Of a stretch of DNA of 64,000 nt, positions 18,123 through 64,000 are shown piece after piece (position 1 is the first letter of the stretch; every line of letters starts with the position of its first letter). The stretch is from the NCBI RefSeq assembly GCF_008935055.1, contig NZ_CP043030.1, forward strand, positions 24,943-88,942, in the 5' to 3' direction. A program made the translations under genes and the position numbers. The notes beneath the pieces are model-generated. The model was not told the origin of the DNA. It saw nothing but the letters and a program-made list of their open reading frames with translations, and did no database searches. The DNA is from Pseudobutyrivibrio xylanivorans. GTDB lineage: Bacteria; Bacillota; Clostridia; Lachnospirales; Lachnospiraceae.

Positions 18123-18182
18123 AGACTGGAATTTTTATCACTGCATATTTATTGGGTTCTGTACATTTGATTATATTAAGCC

Positions 18183-57380: not shown

Positions 57381-58311
57381 AAATAAATTCCTCCATATTT
57401 TATTGCTAGAAATAGAGTATAGCCATAAAGTACGGAGGGTTCAAGGAACAAAGTATTAAATTTATCTTAAGTATTTAGCGCAACATCCAAAGCACAGTAC
57501 CCTAGTAGTATTTAAAAAAGCATAGAATTATTCTTAAAACTATAGACCACATTATTGTGTGGGAATTTTTTTATGAGATTTATGATAGATTATAGTATAA
57601 TTATATCTGTGATGGGGATTTGTTTGTGTTTTTACGTTTACTCTATCATCTAGCTGCTGGTTATAGCTTGTAAGCTTCAAATTATGCTCTATTTCTTCAT
57701 GTATTGCTTTAAACGAATATTTTACCGTTAATACATATATTAGGCTTTTTTTTCGAATTTGACCATGTGTAGTTAAAATAGTTCTTTTAGATATTTATGT
57801 TATAAGAGTTATTAATATTCTTTTAGTTCTAAATCTTATTCTAGTTAATATATTTCTTTTTATTCCAATAGTTGTTATCGTTAATTATGTTCTAACATAT
57901 ATCTCTTGCATTTTAGTTCTATTAGATATAATTTATACTTCTTGTATTTGTAATATCTCTTAGCTTTCATGTGCTTGTATTCTTTATAATATTTATTTTC
58001 TATACTTTACTTGTAATATTTAGAATATCTCATAGCTTTCTTTTATTTAGTGCAAATAGAATACTTGTTGAAATTAAATTGCTTATAATATATAATGCTA
58101 ATGTAATAACTATTTTGCTTTAGAGATTTAAATGATATTAAAGAATAGATTTCTTTGAGGTGTTTTAGTTCTAACAGTGAAATCTGTTAAATGAGATATT
58201 TTTGAGAAATTAGTTCTTTCATATATATATTGTATTTAAAGTAAATAGAATGCATTAGAGAATTAAGAGACATCAAATATTTAAATGACATCATGTATAG
58301 GAGAGAAATAA
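57381..58311. other. AT-rich repeat region upstream of parA, candidate centromere (parS)
   Basis: 930 bp without a gene and very AT-rich. TTAGTTCTAA recurs at 57823-57832 and 58165-58174, with TTAGTTCTAT at 57913-57922, TTAGTTCTTT at 58210-58219 and ATAGTTCTTT at about 57778. AATATCTCTTAGCTTTC (57952) and AATATCTCATAGCTTTC (58024) form a 72-bp-spaced pair. Repeats just before parA are typical of partition sites that double as the par operon operator. Confidence 0.55.
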
Positions 58312-59100
58312 ATGAAAACAATTGCAATATGTATAGGTAAAGGTGGTCAATGGAAAACTAGCCTTACAGTCAACATGGCATACCTTCTCAAGGAAAAAGG
58401 ATTAAAAGTTTTAGTAATCGATTGTGATACACAGGGAAACGCTTCTTTAACATTCAAGGCTGACATGAATGATGCAACTTTATATGATTGCTGGGTAGAA
58501 GAGCGTAGACCTATGAATCCAATGGATTGCGTACAGCATACAGAGCTTGGTGATATCATCGTAGCAGATTCGCTCTTATCCGACTTAAATACCCTTATCA
58601 TGAATCCAGACCATAATTTGGACTATACATCACTAAAAACAAAGGTATTCGACAAATTAGAGGGTTATGATTACGTTTTAATGGATTGCCCACCTGATCT
58701 TACAGGCTGCATTAACAAATCAGTTCTTGCATCAGTAGACGAAGCTCTTATTCCTCTTGTAGGAGATGCATACTCAATCCAGGGATTAGCAAACCAGTAC
58801 AAGCTTATCCAGTCACTTTCATCAGGTGAGCACCCAATGAACCCTAATTTAAAGGTAAATGGCTTTGTTGTAACAAACTTCACCACCAACAGAAACGTTA
58901 AAAAGAACCATTATGAGAACGCAGTAGCAATTGCCAACAAAATGGGAACAAAGGTATATAAACAGTACATTAGAGCTTGTAAAGACGGTGAAATGGCAAT
59001 TGATAACAGAGAAGCAGTAGTAAAATCAAAGCCATGGTGCAACAGCTCAGTAGATTATAAAGCATTCATCGAAGAATTCTTAGAAAGTGAGGGCAAATAA
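58312..59100 (+). CDS. parA: ParA-family partition ATPase with substituted P-loop
   Basis: A 262-residue protein without an N-terminal DNA-binding extension, so of the small (type Ib-like) class. The deviant Walker A is IGKGGQWKTSLTVNMAYLL: signature Lys10 and P-loop Lys15 are present, but the Gly before Lys15 is Trp14 (TGG, 58351-58353). The rest is normal: VLVIDCDTQGNASLTF (A-prime), YDYVLMDCPPDLTG (Walker B) and ALIPLVGDAYSIQGLANQYK. AGGAGAGAAATA precedes the ATG. Overlaps the next gene by one base. It would move or space replicon copies with its partner protein. Confidence 0.9.
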   Translation: MKTIAICIGKGGQWKTSLTVNMAYLLKEKGLKVLVIDCDTQGNASLTFKADMNDATLYDCWVEERRPMNPMDCVQHTELGDIIVADSLLSDLNTLIMNPDHNLDYTSLKTKVFDKLEGYDYVLMDCPPDLTGCINKSVLASVDEALIPLVGDAYSIQGLANQYKLIQSLSSGEHPMNPNLKVNGFVVTNFTTNRNVKKNHYENAVAIANKMGTKVYKQYIRACKDGEMAIDNREAVVKSKPWCNSSVDYKAFIEEFLESEGK

Positions 59101-59726
59101 TGGCACGTTCAGCAAGTGGAGATGGATTCTCAGTAAAACCAAAGAATACAAACACATTAGATTTATTTGATGATTTAATGGCTACAACACCTGCTCCAGC
59201 GGAGCCAAAAGTTGAGCCTAAAGTAGAACCTAAAAAGGTAGAAAACCCTAAGAAAGAGCCTGTAAAGAAAGAGGAAAAGAAGGTCGAAGCTCCTGCCCCA
59301 AAGAAGGAAAGTGCTCCTAAGGAGAAAAAAGAGGAGCCTAAGGTAGAAAAACCAAAAACTCCTTCAAAGCCTGTAAAATCAACAGTTGAATCTCGTTACA
59401 ACGAGCCTAGAAAGTCAATTACTATCTCTGTTCTTGAAGATGAAGACATGTTTTTACGTTTCCATGCAGCAAGAAATGGTATTTCAAGACAAGACTTACT
59501 GGAAAAGATCTTCACTGAAGAAATTGATAAGTTAAATGCTGGTGATTTACCAACACTTGAAGAAATCAAGCCATACATGAAGCAATTAAAAGAACCAACA
59601 AGATTTACAGCAATGCTTCAGGCAGATTTAATTGATGATATAAAGAAAGCTGCTAGCTTAGCTGGCTTAAGGCCGACAAGCTTTATGGCTTACGCAATTC
59701 ACAAAGCACAATTAAATGTAAAATAG
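59100..59726 (+). CDS. ParB-like partner protein with Lys-Glu-Pro-rich linker
   Basis: A 208-residue protein whose ATG shares an A with the parA stop (TAATG). Residues about 1-30 contain a short segment TNTLDLFDDLMA that could contact ParA. Residues about 30-100 are low-complexity K/E/P/V/A (PKVEPKVEPKKVENPKKEP). Residues about 100-208 contain RKSITISVLEDEDMFLRFHA and a second RFTAMLQADLIDDIKKAASL, two ribbon-helix-helix-like units. No ParB/Srx nuclease domain is seen. Likely the centromere-binding protein; the family assignment is inferred from position and fold. Confidence 0.75.
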   Translation: MARSASGDGFSVKPKNTNTLDLFDDLMATTPAPAEPKVEPKVEPKKVENPKKEPVKKEEKKVEAPAPKKESAPKEKKEEPKVEKPKTPSKPVKSTVESRYNEPRKSITISVLEDEDMFLRFHAARNGISRQDLLEKIFTEEIDKLNAGDLPTLEEIKPYMKQLKEPTRFTAMLQADLIDDIKKAASLAGLRPTSFMAYAIHKAQLNVK

Positions 59727-59771: not shown

Positions 59772-59878
59772 TGCATCCCCCTAGGGGAATAAAATGAAAA
59801 GGTAAAAGCATAGAAAGGTATATATGTATAGGGAACGTCTTATAAACGTTGATTTTATGGGATTTGTCGAGATTAACT

Positions 59879-60434
59879 ATGAAAAACCGCACACTAAAAA
59901 ATGATAAACCACCCACTTTTCCATGATAAAAGGCACACTGAAAAATGAAATGTAGCACACCAAACGATGAAATCCCACACTCTAACTATGATAAGTTGCA
60001 CACCGAGAAAATAAATAACGAAAAATCAAGCTTTCTGGGACCCGAAAAAAAGAGAATGGTATCGTAATTCAACATGAATTATGACAGATTGCACACCAAA
60101 ATGGGCTTAATTATGAAGAAAGGAATAGTTTTTCATAATACAGTGTGTAAGTTGTCATAGAAAGTGTGTACTACTTAACTGATAATGTTTTTATTTGTTT
60201 GAGAATAAACTGACAAATAATCACTATAAAATACTAAAAATGATAAGTCGCACACCGGTAAAAATAGAAAAATGAAAAAGTGTGCAAGATATCATAATAT
60301 GGTGTGTGATTTATCATAATAGGCCTAAAATAAGGATTTATAGCCATCTATTCTTATCATTTTTGCGATTTTCTTTGATTTAGTGCAGTGTGCGCAGCGT
60401 CATAGAAACTTCTAACTATGACAAGTCACACACT
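59879..60434. other. oriV: iteron array: origin of replication of the replicon
   Basis: Consensus ATGATAAGTYGCACACC (17 bp). Six direct copies start at 59879, 59901, 59923, 59945, 59967 (two bases short) and 59988, pitch 22, 22, 22, 22 and 21 bp. Further direct copies start at 60081, 60240 and 60418. Inverted copies lie at 60142-60158, 60279-60295, 60301-60317 and 60387-60403, with a half-site at about 60163. Between them are A/T-rich stretches suited to melting. The initiator gene starts 86 bp beyond the last copy. This is a textbook iteron layout. Confidence 0.9.
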
Positions 60435-60519
60435 ACGATGAAAAGTAAATTAATTTATCATTTTTCTTGTTATTATGAAAACAAATGGATATAATCATAG
60501 TTAATAAGGAGAGTGTGTC

Positions 60520-61914
60520 ATGAAGGGACCAACCTATTTTAATGAGAATGAGATCACCATCTCTGAGACAAATAGGTATAAGTTGACTTCAAATGGCTAT
60601 GACGGCCAGATGGAACTTACACCTAGCGGAGATGTTATTGATCCAGCCGAATTGAATGCTCCAAAACCTATGGTAATAAATGAAGATGGTTCAGCTGCTG
60701 TAGATTCGTCCTTAGCGGAAGTGCCTCCCAAAATAGGAAGTAACGACTTTTTACAGTTGATAGCATCAAAGCCAGAGGAGGCAGTTAACTATATCTGTTC
60801 ATTACAGAGTAATAACAGTCCTGCGAAACGTGGTGGCGTAAATATTACATATAGGCCAGAGATTCTTTTCCTTAGATCTAGACAAAACTATACATTATAT
60901 GAAAACAACATTATGGATATCCTTTTAGCAGAGATGTCATCAAAGCCAGACAACAGGGTCTATGAGATTCCGGTTAAGGAATTAGATGAAAGACTTGGAT
61001 ATTCAAAAGGAAGTAAGCAGGGATACAAGGTATTCAAAAAAGCTTTACCTCTTCTTAAAGAAAAGGTAATTATGGAGTTCAACCTTCCTGTTGCGGATGG
61101 TATGCATACATTTAGATTCCCTTGGTATTTAGCTCTTGATGAGTTTATTCCAAAGGAAGGTGAAGCTGGAGAGAATAAATTCACATTCCAACCATCACCA
61201 TTCTTCGAAGCTTTTGCTAAAGCGTCAGGAATTCTTCACGGTGCTTACTATAGTACACAGCTTTTATCCCAGATTTCAGCCGAGTATAGCCGTAATGTAT
61301 TCTACTTACTTGAGACATATAAGAAGTACAGAGCTTATCCAGGCGGTCCAATTGGAGAAGTAGAATTTGCTCTTGATGAATTGAAGTTCTACCTTGGTAT
61401 GCCAGTATCTTATAAGGCTGGTGATATTAAGAGAGTTCTTGAAAGAGCAAGGCGTGATCTAGAGGGAATTGAAAATATTGATGTTTCGTTTACCTGTAGT
61501 GAGCACAAGCAAGGAGTAAAGAGTGTTGGGTACTTAGTCCATATTTCAGACATCTATGCTAGAGAAAAGGGTAGAGAGATTGCTGAGAAGGCAGTTGTGG
61601 ATATAGAAGATAAGCACAAGGACCTTTATGTCTTGCTTACAGACTTCGGATTGAACGAAGAAGAGGCAAAATCTATTATTGAAACTTATATCAACTACAA
61701 TAGAACCCTTATGGATGTTATGAAATCGATAACAAGTATCAATAGTATGAAGAATCCTCGTTCAAAGTATTCATTGCTTAAGACAAAACTTGTTACTGGA
61801 GAGTTTGAATACAATGCTCCAGAAAAAAATGAAAAACCTAAGAATGGATTCCATAATTTCCAACAGAGAGATTATGATATGGATGACTTAGAAAAAAAAT
61901 TATTAGGACAGTAA
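60520..61914 (+). CDS. Rep_3-type plasmid replication initiator
   Basis: A 464-residue initiator. Residues about 100-340 hold the paired winged helices of Rep_3/RepB-like proteins: VNITYRPEILFLRSRQNYTL, NIMDILLAEMSSKPDNRVYE, LDERLGYSKGSKQGYKVFKK, then ISAEYSRNVFYLLETYKKYR and LDELKFYLGMPVSYKAGDIK. A 100-residue N-terminal extension and a charged C-terminus make it longer than small-plasmid RepE/RepA proteins. AAGGAGAGTGTGTC precedes the ATG; GTGTGTCAT there resembles an inverted iteron part, so autoregulation is likely. Confidence 0.88.
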   Translation: MKGPTYFNENEITISETNRYKLTSNGYDGQMELTPSGDVIDPAELNAPKPMVINEDGSAAVDSSLAEVPPKIGSNDFLQLIASKPEEAVNYICSLQSNNSPAKRGGVNITYRPEILFLRSRQNYTLYENNIMDILLAEMSSKPDNRVYEIPVKELDERLGYSKGSKQGYKVFKKALPLLKEKVIMEFNLPVADGMHTFRFPWYLALDEFIPKEGEAGENKFTFQPSPFFEAFAKASGILHGAYYSTQLLSQISAEYSRNVFYLLETYKKYRAYPGGPIGEVEFALDELKFYLGMPVSYKAGDIKRVLERARRDLEGIENIDVSFTCSEHKQGVKSVGYLVHISDIYAREKGREIAEKAVVDIEDKHKDLYVLLTDFGLNEEEAKSIIETYINYNRTLMDVMKSITSINSMKNPRSKYSLLKTKLVTGEFEYNAPEKNEKPKNGFHNFQQRDYDMDDLEKKLLGQ

Positions 61915-62690: not shown

Positions 62691-62762
62691 AAAAAGAACA
62701 TCCTTCTTTGTGATAAGATATTGGTTTGCGAAACAATACTAACAAGGGAGGATGTTCTTTTT
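62691..62762 (+). promoter_or_regulatory. inverted repeat that can hide the transposase ribosome binding site
   Basis: AAAAAGAACATCCTTCTTTG (62691-62710) is complementary to CAAGGGAGGATGTTCTTTTT (62743-62762) over 20 bases; the only two non-Watson-Crick positions are G-U in RNA. The right arm contains GGGAGG and ends at the ATG (62763). Transcripts entering from outside would fold and block translation. Confidence 0.75.
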
Positions 62763-64000
62763 ATGGAAGAAATTATAAAGTATTTCGCAGATGTTTTCAT
62801 CACAAATTTATATGATGCTAAGAGTGATTTTTATAAGAATCCACAATCGTTAGCTGAACTGGTCATTGCAACTAAGAAGGAAACAGATGAGTTAGGACGA
62901 TTGTTCATTCAGTCTGTGCTGCAGGAAATGGATACACTTTTAAAGGAATTACCTAAGAGAAAACGCTTATGGAATGTAGAACATAAGGCAGATGCCAGAC
63001 AGGTTCTTACAACACTTGGAAGAGTTACTTTTACAAGAACACTTTACGTTTCAAAGAACTCAAATTCAGATGAGAAGGAAGAATTATGCTACCTGTTAGA
63101 TAAGTTGATTGGTCTGGGCGATAATCAGCAGATGACAGAAGACGTTATGGCGAACATTTATAGTGAAGCTGTTCAGACTTCATATCGGAAGGCTGGAGAG
63201 GTAGCATCTATTCCTGAAGGAGTTACTAAAACAACTGTAAAAAATTTGCTTCACAAGACAAAATTCCCCAAAGAATTTCCAGATTCCTGAAATAAAAAAG
63301 GAAGTGGATTATTTATACATAGACGCAGACGAGGATCACTATCATCTTCAGTTTAAAGAACAACGTGGTGATTTAGAATACCACGATTACGGTAGAAAGC
63401 TAAATGGTGCTATTAATAAGATTATCTACGTATTTGAAGGAATAGAGCCTGAAGCACCGAGAAGTAAACGAAATAGACTTGTTGGAACACACTATTTTTG
63501 TCGTGGAGATGAACAGGACAATAAAGAGTTATGGAAGGAAGTTTTTGATTATGTAGAGGCAACATATGATGTAGAAAAAAATAAAGAAAATATATATAAA
63601 TGCTGACGGAGGAGCATGGATAAAAAACTGGATATAGAGGTTTAGCCAATGTAACATTTTGTATTAGATGAATTTCATATATCAGAGCATGTTTCTAGAA
63701 TAATTTCACACATGAAGGATTCTAAAGATGATGTAAGGATTGAAATATATAAAACGATAAGAAGCAAAACAAATGCTGATTTTCTAAAACTGGTTGATAG
63801 AATAAAAGAATACACTTCTTCAGAAAATATACTTGCAAAAATATCGGCTTCAGCTGATTACATAAGTTCAAATTGGATGGCAGCTAAATATCGCTTAAGA
63901 AAGCATGAAGGAGTGTTGGCCTGTTCGGCAGAAGGGCATGTATATCATGTGTTATCCTAGTAGAATGAGTACGCAAGCGATGGGCTGGAGTAAACATGGA
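62763..64000 (+). pseudogene. ISLre2-family (UPF0236) transposase, decayed, cut by the window edge
   Basis: The first part (62763-63290) is intact: MEEIIKYFADVFITNLYDAK, KRLWNVEHKADARQVLTTLG, TLYVSKNSNSDEKEELCYLL. The reading frame then shifts near 63270. It resumes as FQIPEIKKEVDYLYIDADED (catalytic Asp region) and HYHLQFKEQRGDLEYH, to about 63595 (KENIY). It shifts again around INADGGAWIK, and runs as VLDEFHISEHVSRIISHMKD and SSNWMAAKYRLRKHEGVLAC. One more shift precedes MSTQAMGWSKHG at the edge. At least three frame breaks: inactive. Confidence 0.85.

Follow-up and report, generated by a model that had tools for sequence, protein, structure and literature searches.

Iterons and inverted half-site pairs at a probable Rep_3 replication origin of the Pseudobutyrivibrio xylanivorans replicon PxyII

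In the present work, we have analysed a stretch of 64,000 nucleotides of Pseudobutyrivibrio xylanivorans MA3014 ("the window"). It covers bases 24943-88942 of a contig of 88,942 bp, one of three contigs in a genome that totals 3,584,491 bases. The region at 59.8-60.5 kb is probably the theta origin and the copy-control region of this 89-kb replicon, served by the Rep_3 initiator that is encoded downstream: the iterons would start replication, inverted pairs of iteron half-sites, which we refer to as "dyads", would restrain it, and the tail of the initiator would recruit the primosome. The new element is a second class of sites that, as read from the sequence, consists of inverted iteron half-sites at a fixed gap (ATGA-N16-TCAT), in four copies, two of which lie at the rep promoter. 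Our reading draws on the sites, their spacing and conservation, the modelled fold of Rep, the common tail and the GC skew; from these we infer monomer and dimer occupancy, repression, unwinding, helicase recruitment and copy control.

The gene order at the locus is parA, a second par gene, the repeats and rep, with the following coding features:

58312..59100, plus strand: parA, partition ATPase (262 aa; AAA_31, E 2.6e-31)
59100..59726, plus strand: second gene of the par operon (208 aa), probable centromere-binding protein
60520..61914, plus strand: rep, initiator of the Rep_3 family (464 aa); C-terminal extension, DnaD-type tail

The role given to the second par protein follows from its position after parA, since the protein has no match in Pfam or NCBIfam. 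Rep scores above the Pfam cut-off for Rep3_N and has both the WH1 domain and a second winged helix; the Pfam WH2 model, not reported for the PxyII Rep, is precomputed for its near copies. The predicted fold matches RepE and Pi over residues 113-347, and RctB is also among the fold matches. Two further observations concern the flanks: upstream of parA, 57381-58311 is AT-rich and non-coding with loosely repeated words, none above chance by one motif over the window, and is a possible candidate centromere; right of rep, at 62721-63960, there are three successive reading frames, the first short, like the ISLre2 (UPF0236) transposase, which by the look of it are a broken insertion element.

Relatives of Rep have been found at E 1e-10 in 15 of the 29 genomes of the genus. 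Only one genome besides MA3014 carries a close Rep (86% identical, on a MAG contig; L007, of which L013 is a duplicate), the others being 26-32% identical, and the chromosome contig of MA3014 carries three far copies, two of them identical. Of 397 genomes sampled from the family, 6 have a relative, two of these belonging to Pseudobutyrivibrio, and searches of the genera around G200 and G104 show distant Reps in one of six and in four of 13 genomes, respectively. As translated DNA, Rep matches nothing in the collections of plasmids and phages at E 1e-5 and nothing among viral contigs; among the genome contigs there are one near (L007) and one far relative (L008), and a protein search has returned six relatives (98, 86, 78, 54, 51 and 29% identical), which come as proteins and not with their DNA context. 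The comparison of origins drops L003 (the same as L002), L013, L027 (spacing as in L008), L005, L006 and the loci outside the genus; an upstream scan of the last (L031-L034) gives a pitch of about 31-35 bp in L032 and L033, and little in L031 and L034.

An initial annotation of this DNA had proposed an iteron origin beside the rep gene, in which six phased direct copies of a 17-bp motif are followed by three direct and four inverted copies. This arrangement has been confirmed: phased direct iterons lie next to rep, with the par genes adjoining, and a weight matrix, built from 11 copies and thus fitted to the sites that it scores, finds 13 sites at 59879-60434, nine direct and four inverted:

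59879..60004, plus strand: six direct iterons (59879, 59901, 59923, 59945, 59967, 59988) at a pitch of 22, 22, 22, 22 and 21 bp, by weight matrix; same phase in L007, where the third copy is weak
60081..60097, plus strand: direct iteron 7 (23.3 bits); 16/17 bases as in L007
60142..60158, minus strand: inverted iteron 1 (22.4 bits); L007 counterpart 25.9 bits
60240..60256, plus strand: direct iteron 8 (26.5 bits); counterpart in L007
60279..60295, minus strand: inverted iteron 2 (22.4 bits); no full counterpart in L007, where mainly a half-site is kept
60301..60317, minus strand: inverted iteron 3 (23.7 bits); L007 counterpart 20.5 bits
60387..60403, minus strand: inverted iteron 4 (17.8 bits); not conserved in L007 (7/17 bases)
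60418..60434, plus strand: direct iteron 9 (24.4 bits); 16/17 bases as in L007

Twelve of the 13 sites score at least 16.0 bits, a value that no other site reaches (the best elsewhere on the 88,942-bp replicon has 15.9), so the motif is not spread randomly over the replicon. The remaining iteron, at 59967, scores 13.0 bits, no higher than the best chance sites and not distinguishable from them by score, and has been accepted because of its phase and its weak counterpart in L007 (11.4 bits). A figure that is independent of the fitted matrix comes from the earlier consensus at up to three mismatches: seven matches occur in the window, all at 59945-60434, where 0.35 are expected (0 of 100 shuffles). 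Genome-wide there are 18 matches, seven at the array, 11 on the chromosome contig and none on the plasmid, while the backward control gives 12 for the whole genome; the chromosome contig thus has no excess of motif sites. For ten of the 13 iterons, L007 has counterparts of at least 11 bits, which are displaced by no less than 1 and no more than 3 bases across 540 bp; among the four inverted iterons, only those at 60142 and 60301 have full counterparts.

In far relatives the motif differs and the plan is alike: a block at a pitch of about 21-22 bp is located far upstream, followed by scattered copies, mostly direct, down to about -100 of rep. The genus relatives hold 8 to 18 iteron-like matches by one scan, a count that is inflated by the four mismatches allowed. 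In one far-related Rep_3 origin (L017), iterons in both orientations occur within repeated modules. The suggestion that the number and mixed orientation of the iterons fit a low-copy megaplasmid or chromid holds in that the 88.9-kb replicon has been published as a chromid, but the number is not special, given the counts in relatives, and the mixed orientation recurs in L017.

The dyads were first noticed in the alignment with L007, where TTATGA and TCATAA face each other at a constant distance. A scan with the half-site TATGAWA, one mismatch being allowed per half, finds four pairs with a gap of 12 in PxyII and four in L007, at -408/-405, -249/-248, -83/-82 and -46/-45 from the rep start:

60112..60137, no strand: dyad 1, inverted half-iterons with a gap of 12 between TATGAWA half-sites; same place in L007
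60271..60296, no strand: dyad 2, overlapping inverted iteron 2; same place in L007
60437..60462, no strand: dyad 3, just upstream of the rep promoter; same place in L007
60474..60499, no strand: dyad 4, candidate operator that covers the spacer and -10 of the rep promoter; half-sites 14/14 bases as in L007

Seven such pairs occur over the whole replicon, and since between 1 and 8 pairs are found at the other gaps from 6 to 19, the count is not special; the clustering is, with four of the seven within 0.4 kb here. In the first two dyads, ATGA begins 32 bp after a direct iteron, in PxyII and L007 alike. The half-sites have retained 51/56 bases in L007, compared with 162/221 for the iterons and 217/399 for the rest, and random sets of 7-mers are as conserved in 1 of 5000 draws, a footprint that is not independent of how the dyads were noticed.

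A test of 14 other Rep_3 origins from the genus has shown pairs one base shorter than those of PxyII in 13, both close to rep and at a greater distance from it, the half-site being the start of the local iteron. Over 14 other loci (a sum that omits L026 and L028) there are 47 pairs at gap 11 and 18 at the next non-trivial gap, 32, which is one iteron pitch longer; the 31 pairs at gap -5 are the half-site overlapping itself. This count is not blind, because the half-sites were set by eye after dyads had been seen in some loci; a count of exact inverted 5-mers is free of any motif, and in 15 other loci it gives 34 pairs at gap 11 against 9.4 in dinucleotide shuffles (0/200), with a centre class of 86, larger than every null value at any gap (56). 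The motif-free count omits L020, L025, L026 and L028 as presumed near copies, of which a 14-mer check confirms L026 and L028 only. For PxyII and L007 alone it peaks at gap 16 (the same pairs, read with a shorter word), with 7 against 1.3 (0/200), and the centre class of 15 is not beyond the largest shuffle value of 17. A dyad within 110 bp of rep, together with another further up, occurs in 15 of the 16 loci with a set half-site, to which L024, L025 and L029 do not belong. In 11 of the 16, no other gap is as common as the fixed one; L015 shows a tie, a commoner gap exists in each of L016, L020 and L021, and L017 has no fixed-gap pair by the chosen half-site.

These counts bear on whether PxyII has an ordinary iteron origin, in which titration and handcuffing set the copy number and the half-site pairs, except for one promoter operator, are worn-down inverted iterons or chance. 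Such an origin is canonical for Rep_3 plasmids, and it would accommodate the overlap of dyad 2 with an inverted iteron, the five of 16 loci in which the fixed gap is not the strict top and the modest dyad signal of PxyII by itself. We nevertheless regard it as rather unlikely, because a single fixed gap reappears in lineages that differ in sequence and have almost only direct iterons, and because the half-sites are better conserved than the iterons, a comparison that is tied to the way the dyads were discovered.

The two dyads nearest to rep flank and cover a predicted promoter:

60467..60495, plus strand: predicted rep promoter, TTGTTA-N17-TATAAT; 12/12 hexamer bases as in L007

A promoter scan has given no excess of promoter-like sites (4 found, 4.8 expected), and the near dyad of the relatives begins between -37 and -84 of rep. 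Judging by sequence, dyads 3 and 4 would be the inverted half-iterons that characterise the rep promoter of Rep_3 systems. It had been proposed that inverted iterons near rep are used for autorepression and handcuffing: inverted elements are indeed located at the rep promoter, but they are the half-iteron pairs at 60437-60462 and 60474-60499, with their fixed gap, and not full inverted iterons.

The protein that reads the half-site is indicated by covariation. Among 14 far relatives with a set half-site, residue 302 of Rep is D with GACA (10/10), E with GGCA (2/2) and M with AACA (2/2), and the PxyII Rep has D at this position and the half-site ATGAWA; residue 302 falls in the predicted helix 300-315. 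The half-sites had been fixed before the residues were compared, and column 302 was picked by eye. The covariation events are few: the M rows are sisters and the E rows are not resolved, so E and M may stand for one or two events each. Covariation of the half-site with a residue of the predicted recognition helix points to Rep as its reader. It also bears on the possibility that the repeats serve as a centromere for the upstream-encoded partition protein, and not as Rep sites, for which the par genes directly upstream and an uncharacterised second par protein could be cited; with half-site pairs on the rep promoter and a half-site that tracks residue 302 in the comparison with Rep, we judge this highly improbable.

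The position of the origin has been examined through the cumulative GC skew of the closed replicon, which has its minimum at window position 57394 and its maximum at 18180; the inversion thus lies near the array, as had been anticipated, and not elsewhere. The arm right of the minimum is positive in 89% of 47 one-kb bins, the left arm is negative in 19 of 19, and over 21 kb on the far side both signs occur (57% negative). The long reading frames share this division: they run forward over 28.8 of 34.7 kb in the right arm, reverse over 10.9 of 13.7 kb in the left arm and forward over 10.5 of 15.4 kb in the far stretch. Skew and gene orientation fit two forks leaving 57-61 kb, with the minimum 2.5 kb left of the iterons, a point against our main reading. 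Forks might instead start nearby, e.g. in the AT-rich, non-coding 57.4-58.3 kb, the array being an incompatibility or regulatory locus: the minimum at 57394 and the character of 57381-58311 would suit this, but the forward genes parA, par2 and rep alone shift the skew right of 58.3 kb, and an AT tract with phased iterons recurs in relatives, so we hold it to be improbable. For the preferred placement of the origin at the array, two elements that precede the iterons are of interest:

59775..59790, no strand: short palindrome CCCCTAGGGG before the AT tract; CCCCTGGGG version in L007
59818..59831, no strand: GTATATATGTATAG tract, candidate unwinding element; 13/14 bases as in L007

By eye, 20 of 21 loci have a tract of GTATA or GTATAG words ahead of the iterons; it is weakest in L025 and missing in L029. 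The earlier remark that no clear DnaA box is present has held, none having been found within one mismatch in the 1000 bp upstream of rep. At this threshold boxes are absent from 17 of the 21 loci, PxyII included; L008, L022 and L028 have one-mismatch boxes and L020 has two perfect ones. Four perfect boxes occur at the dnaA locus of MA3014, meaning that the consensus is used at that site. A DnaA-assisted iteron origin of the F type, which has DnaA boxes in the origin, has been considered and rejected, given that these 1000 bp contain no box within one mismatch.

The C-terminal end of Rep, FHNFQQRDYDMDDLEKKLLGQ, offers a different connection with the host. Of the six matches that a search of the genome with Rep gives, four are full-length Reps, one is a partial Rep-like stretch (L005) and one is the end of a DnaD-type protein, where residues 431-463 of Rep match the end of a 378-aa host protein (E 3.3e-4). 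This protein has two DnaB_2 stretches (DnaD type), ends in FHNFSQRDYDFNELEKRILGN and is followed by a gene of the AAA+ helicase-loader type. Its relatives occur in 58 of 60 family genomes; of the 30 loci returned, 15 fit a strict tail pattern, the remaining 15 were judged by eye to have a looser one, and in all 30 a Walker A motif lies in a frame at most 1.5 kb downstream. Three residues of the tail (F, F and R) do not vary among 20 aligned Reps; the Reps of the G104 and G200 genera are without the tail, and L059 and L060 have looser forms. The extension itself has no Pfam match (DnaB_2) and no DnaD among its fold matches, the tail alone being in common. In Bacillus subtilis, the published accounts state that the DnaB tail contacts the AAA+ domain of DnaI (PMC13326638) and that the DnaD tail binds DnaB and single-stranded DNA (PMC10201434, PMC13326638). 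By analogy with these contacts, and since it is common to the DnaD-like protein, the Rep tail is probably a primosome dock. Whether it meets the loader directly is a narrower matter: the tail may instead bind single-stranded DNA or enter at the DnaD/DnaB step, which differs from our main reading in one step only and which we rate as a serious possibility at somewhat under even chances. The behaviour of the B. subtilis DnaD tail favours such an entry, while the contact of the DnaB tail with DnaI and the adjoining Walker A frame in 30/30 loci speak for the loader, neither being decisive.

Taken together, these elements suggest the following scheme. At low Rep, the phased direct iterons would be filled by monomers and the preceding AT tract would open, while the scattered iterons would titrate and pair Rep. 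The four dyads would be a second, restraining class of sites, probably bound by Rep dimers: with more Rep, the two promoter dyads would repress rep, the two internal dyads would probably tie firing to the Rep level, and dyads and scattered iterons would take up or bridge Rep. The tail would bring the primosome or helicase loader, so that the origin could do without DnaA boxes. This would be the logic of the F plasmid with dyads added inside the origin, and would work like the 29/39-mers of Vibrio. We propose tentatively, as a conjecture that may well fail, that Pseudobutyrivibrio has a distinct design of Rep_3 origin, in which a half-site means "go" when direct (iterons) and "stop" when inverted at a fixed gap, with several stops woven into the origin and a host primosome tail that loads the helicase without DnaA.

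The G+C content of a chromid is usually within about 1 point of that of its chromosome. That of PxyII is 36.9%, against 39.7% for the chromosome (PMC7523725), i.e. 2.8 points lower; no tRNA genes were found on PxyII (contig C3), and the close Rep type occurs in 2 of 29 genomes of the genus, which is relevant to the core genes expected of chromids. The genome paper lists a chromosome of 3,412,851 bp, the chromid PxyII of 88,942 bp and the plasmid pNP95 of 82,698 bp (PMC7523725); its chromid label for the 88.9-kb replicon looks doubtful on these grounds.

The other two contigs have yielded observations of their own. On plasmid C2 (82,698 bp; L012, L041-L044), the skew drops steadily along the full length and has no turn, and the Rep search has given no match, so C2 probably replicates in another way. 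On the chromosome contig C1 (region C1:1-133477; L045-L050, L038, L039), bases 1-43275 are repeated at 90204-133477 (99.998% identical), with a G+C content below that of the DNA that follows, and a skew turn of their own; each copy contains a Rep_3 gene, and at 64806 there is a second dnaA-like gene. The start of C1 would seem to be a plasmid of ~90.2 kb, of which about 1.5 copies are joined to the chromosome, either by the assembly or in the cell itself. At C1:135001-137500 there are 2,500 consecutive N, which may be an assembly gap or a withheld stretch.

The secondary replicons of rumen Butyrivibrio and Pseudobutyrivibrio have so far been described by gene content, and a full-text search, whose coverage leaves out most subscription papers, has yielded no paper in which Butyrivibrio and iteron both occur. 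With a set of related origins whose Rep sites have diverged and can be read, copy control, incompatibility and vector building become testable in this group, and the common tail suggests a direct route by which a plasmid initiator could take over helicase loading without DnaA.

Among known systems, F is the nearest in logic: RepE dimers are described as binding two inverted repeats before repE, and the same source argues that RepE monomers repress too (PMC13028717). PxyII resembles F ori2/RepE in the modelled Rep fold, the direct iterons upstream of rep, the inverted repeats at the rep promoter (PMC13028717) and a candidate AT-rich element, and differs from it in having more iterons, in mixed orientation, dyads inside the origin too, no DnaA box found and a longer Rep with a DnaD-type tail. 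In Vibrio ori2, the 29/39-mers of RctB are reported to repress and inhibit (PMC6090056), and Vibrio cholerae ori2 shares with PxyII six phased direct iterons and a second site class with one copy on the initiator promoter (PMC6090056), RctB being among the fold matches of Rep. The RctB 39-mers differ from the RctB iterons, whereas the dyads are iteron halves, and PxyII has no DnaA box in its origin and no excess of motif sites on the MA3014 chromosome contig; membership in this type has been rejected on two counts, the dyads being iteron halves and the matches on the chromosome contig (11), where a licensing site would be expected, being at control level (12 for the whole genome). The chromid pINBov266 of Butyrivibrio fibrisolvens is alike by its published description, in that repA and parB lie at the GC skew switch; its paper names no iterons (PMC6249431). 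Finally, the RepA_N initiators (pSK41 Rep) are a case of a Firmicute plasmid initiator that has been likened to DnaD (PMC5703833); they form another initiator family, whereas in PxyII the link with DnaD is a C-terminal tail on a Rep_3 protein.
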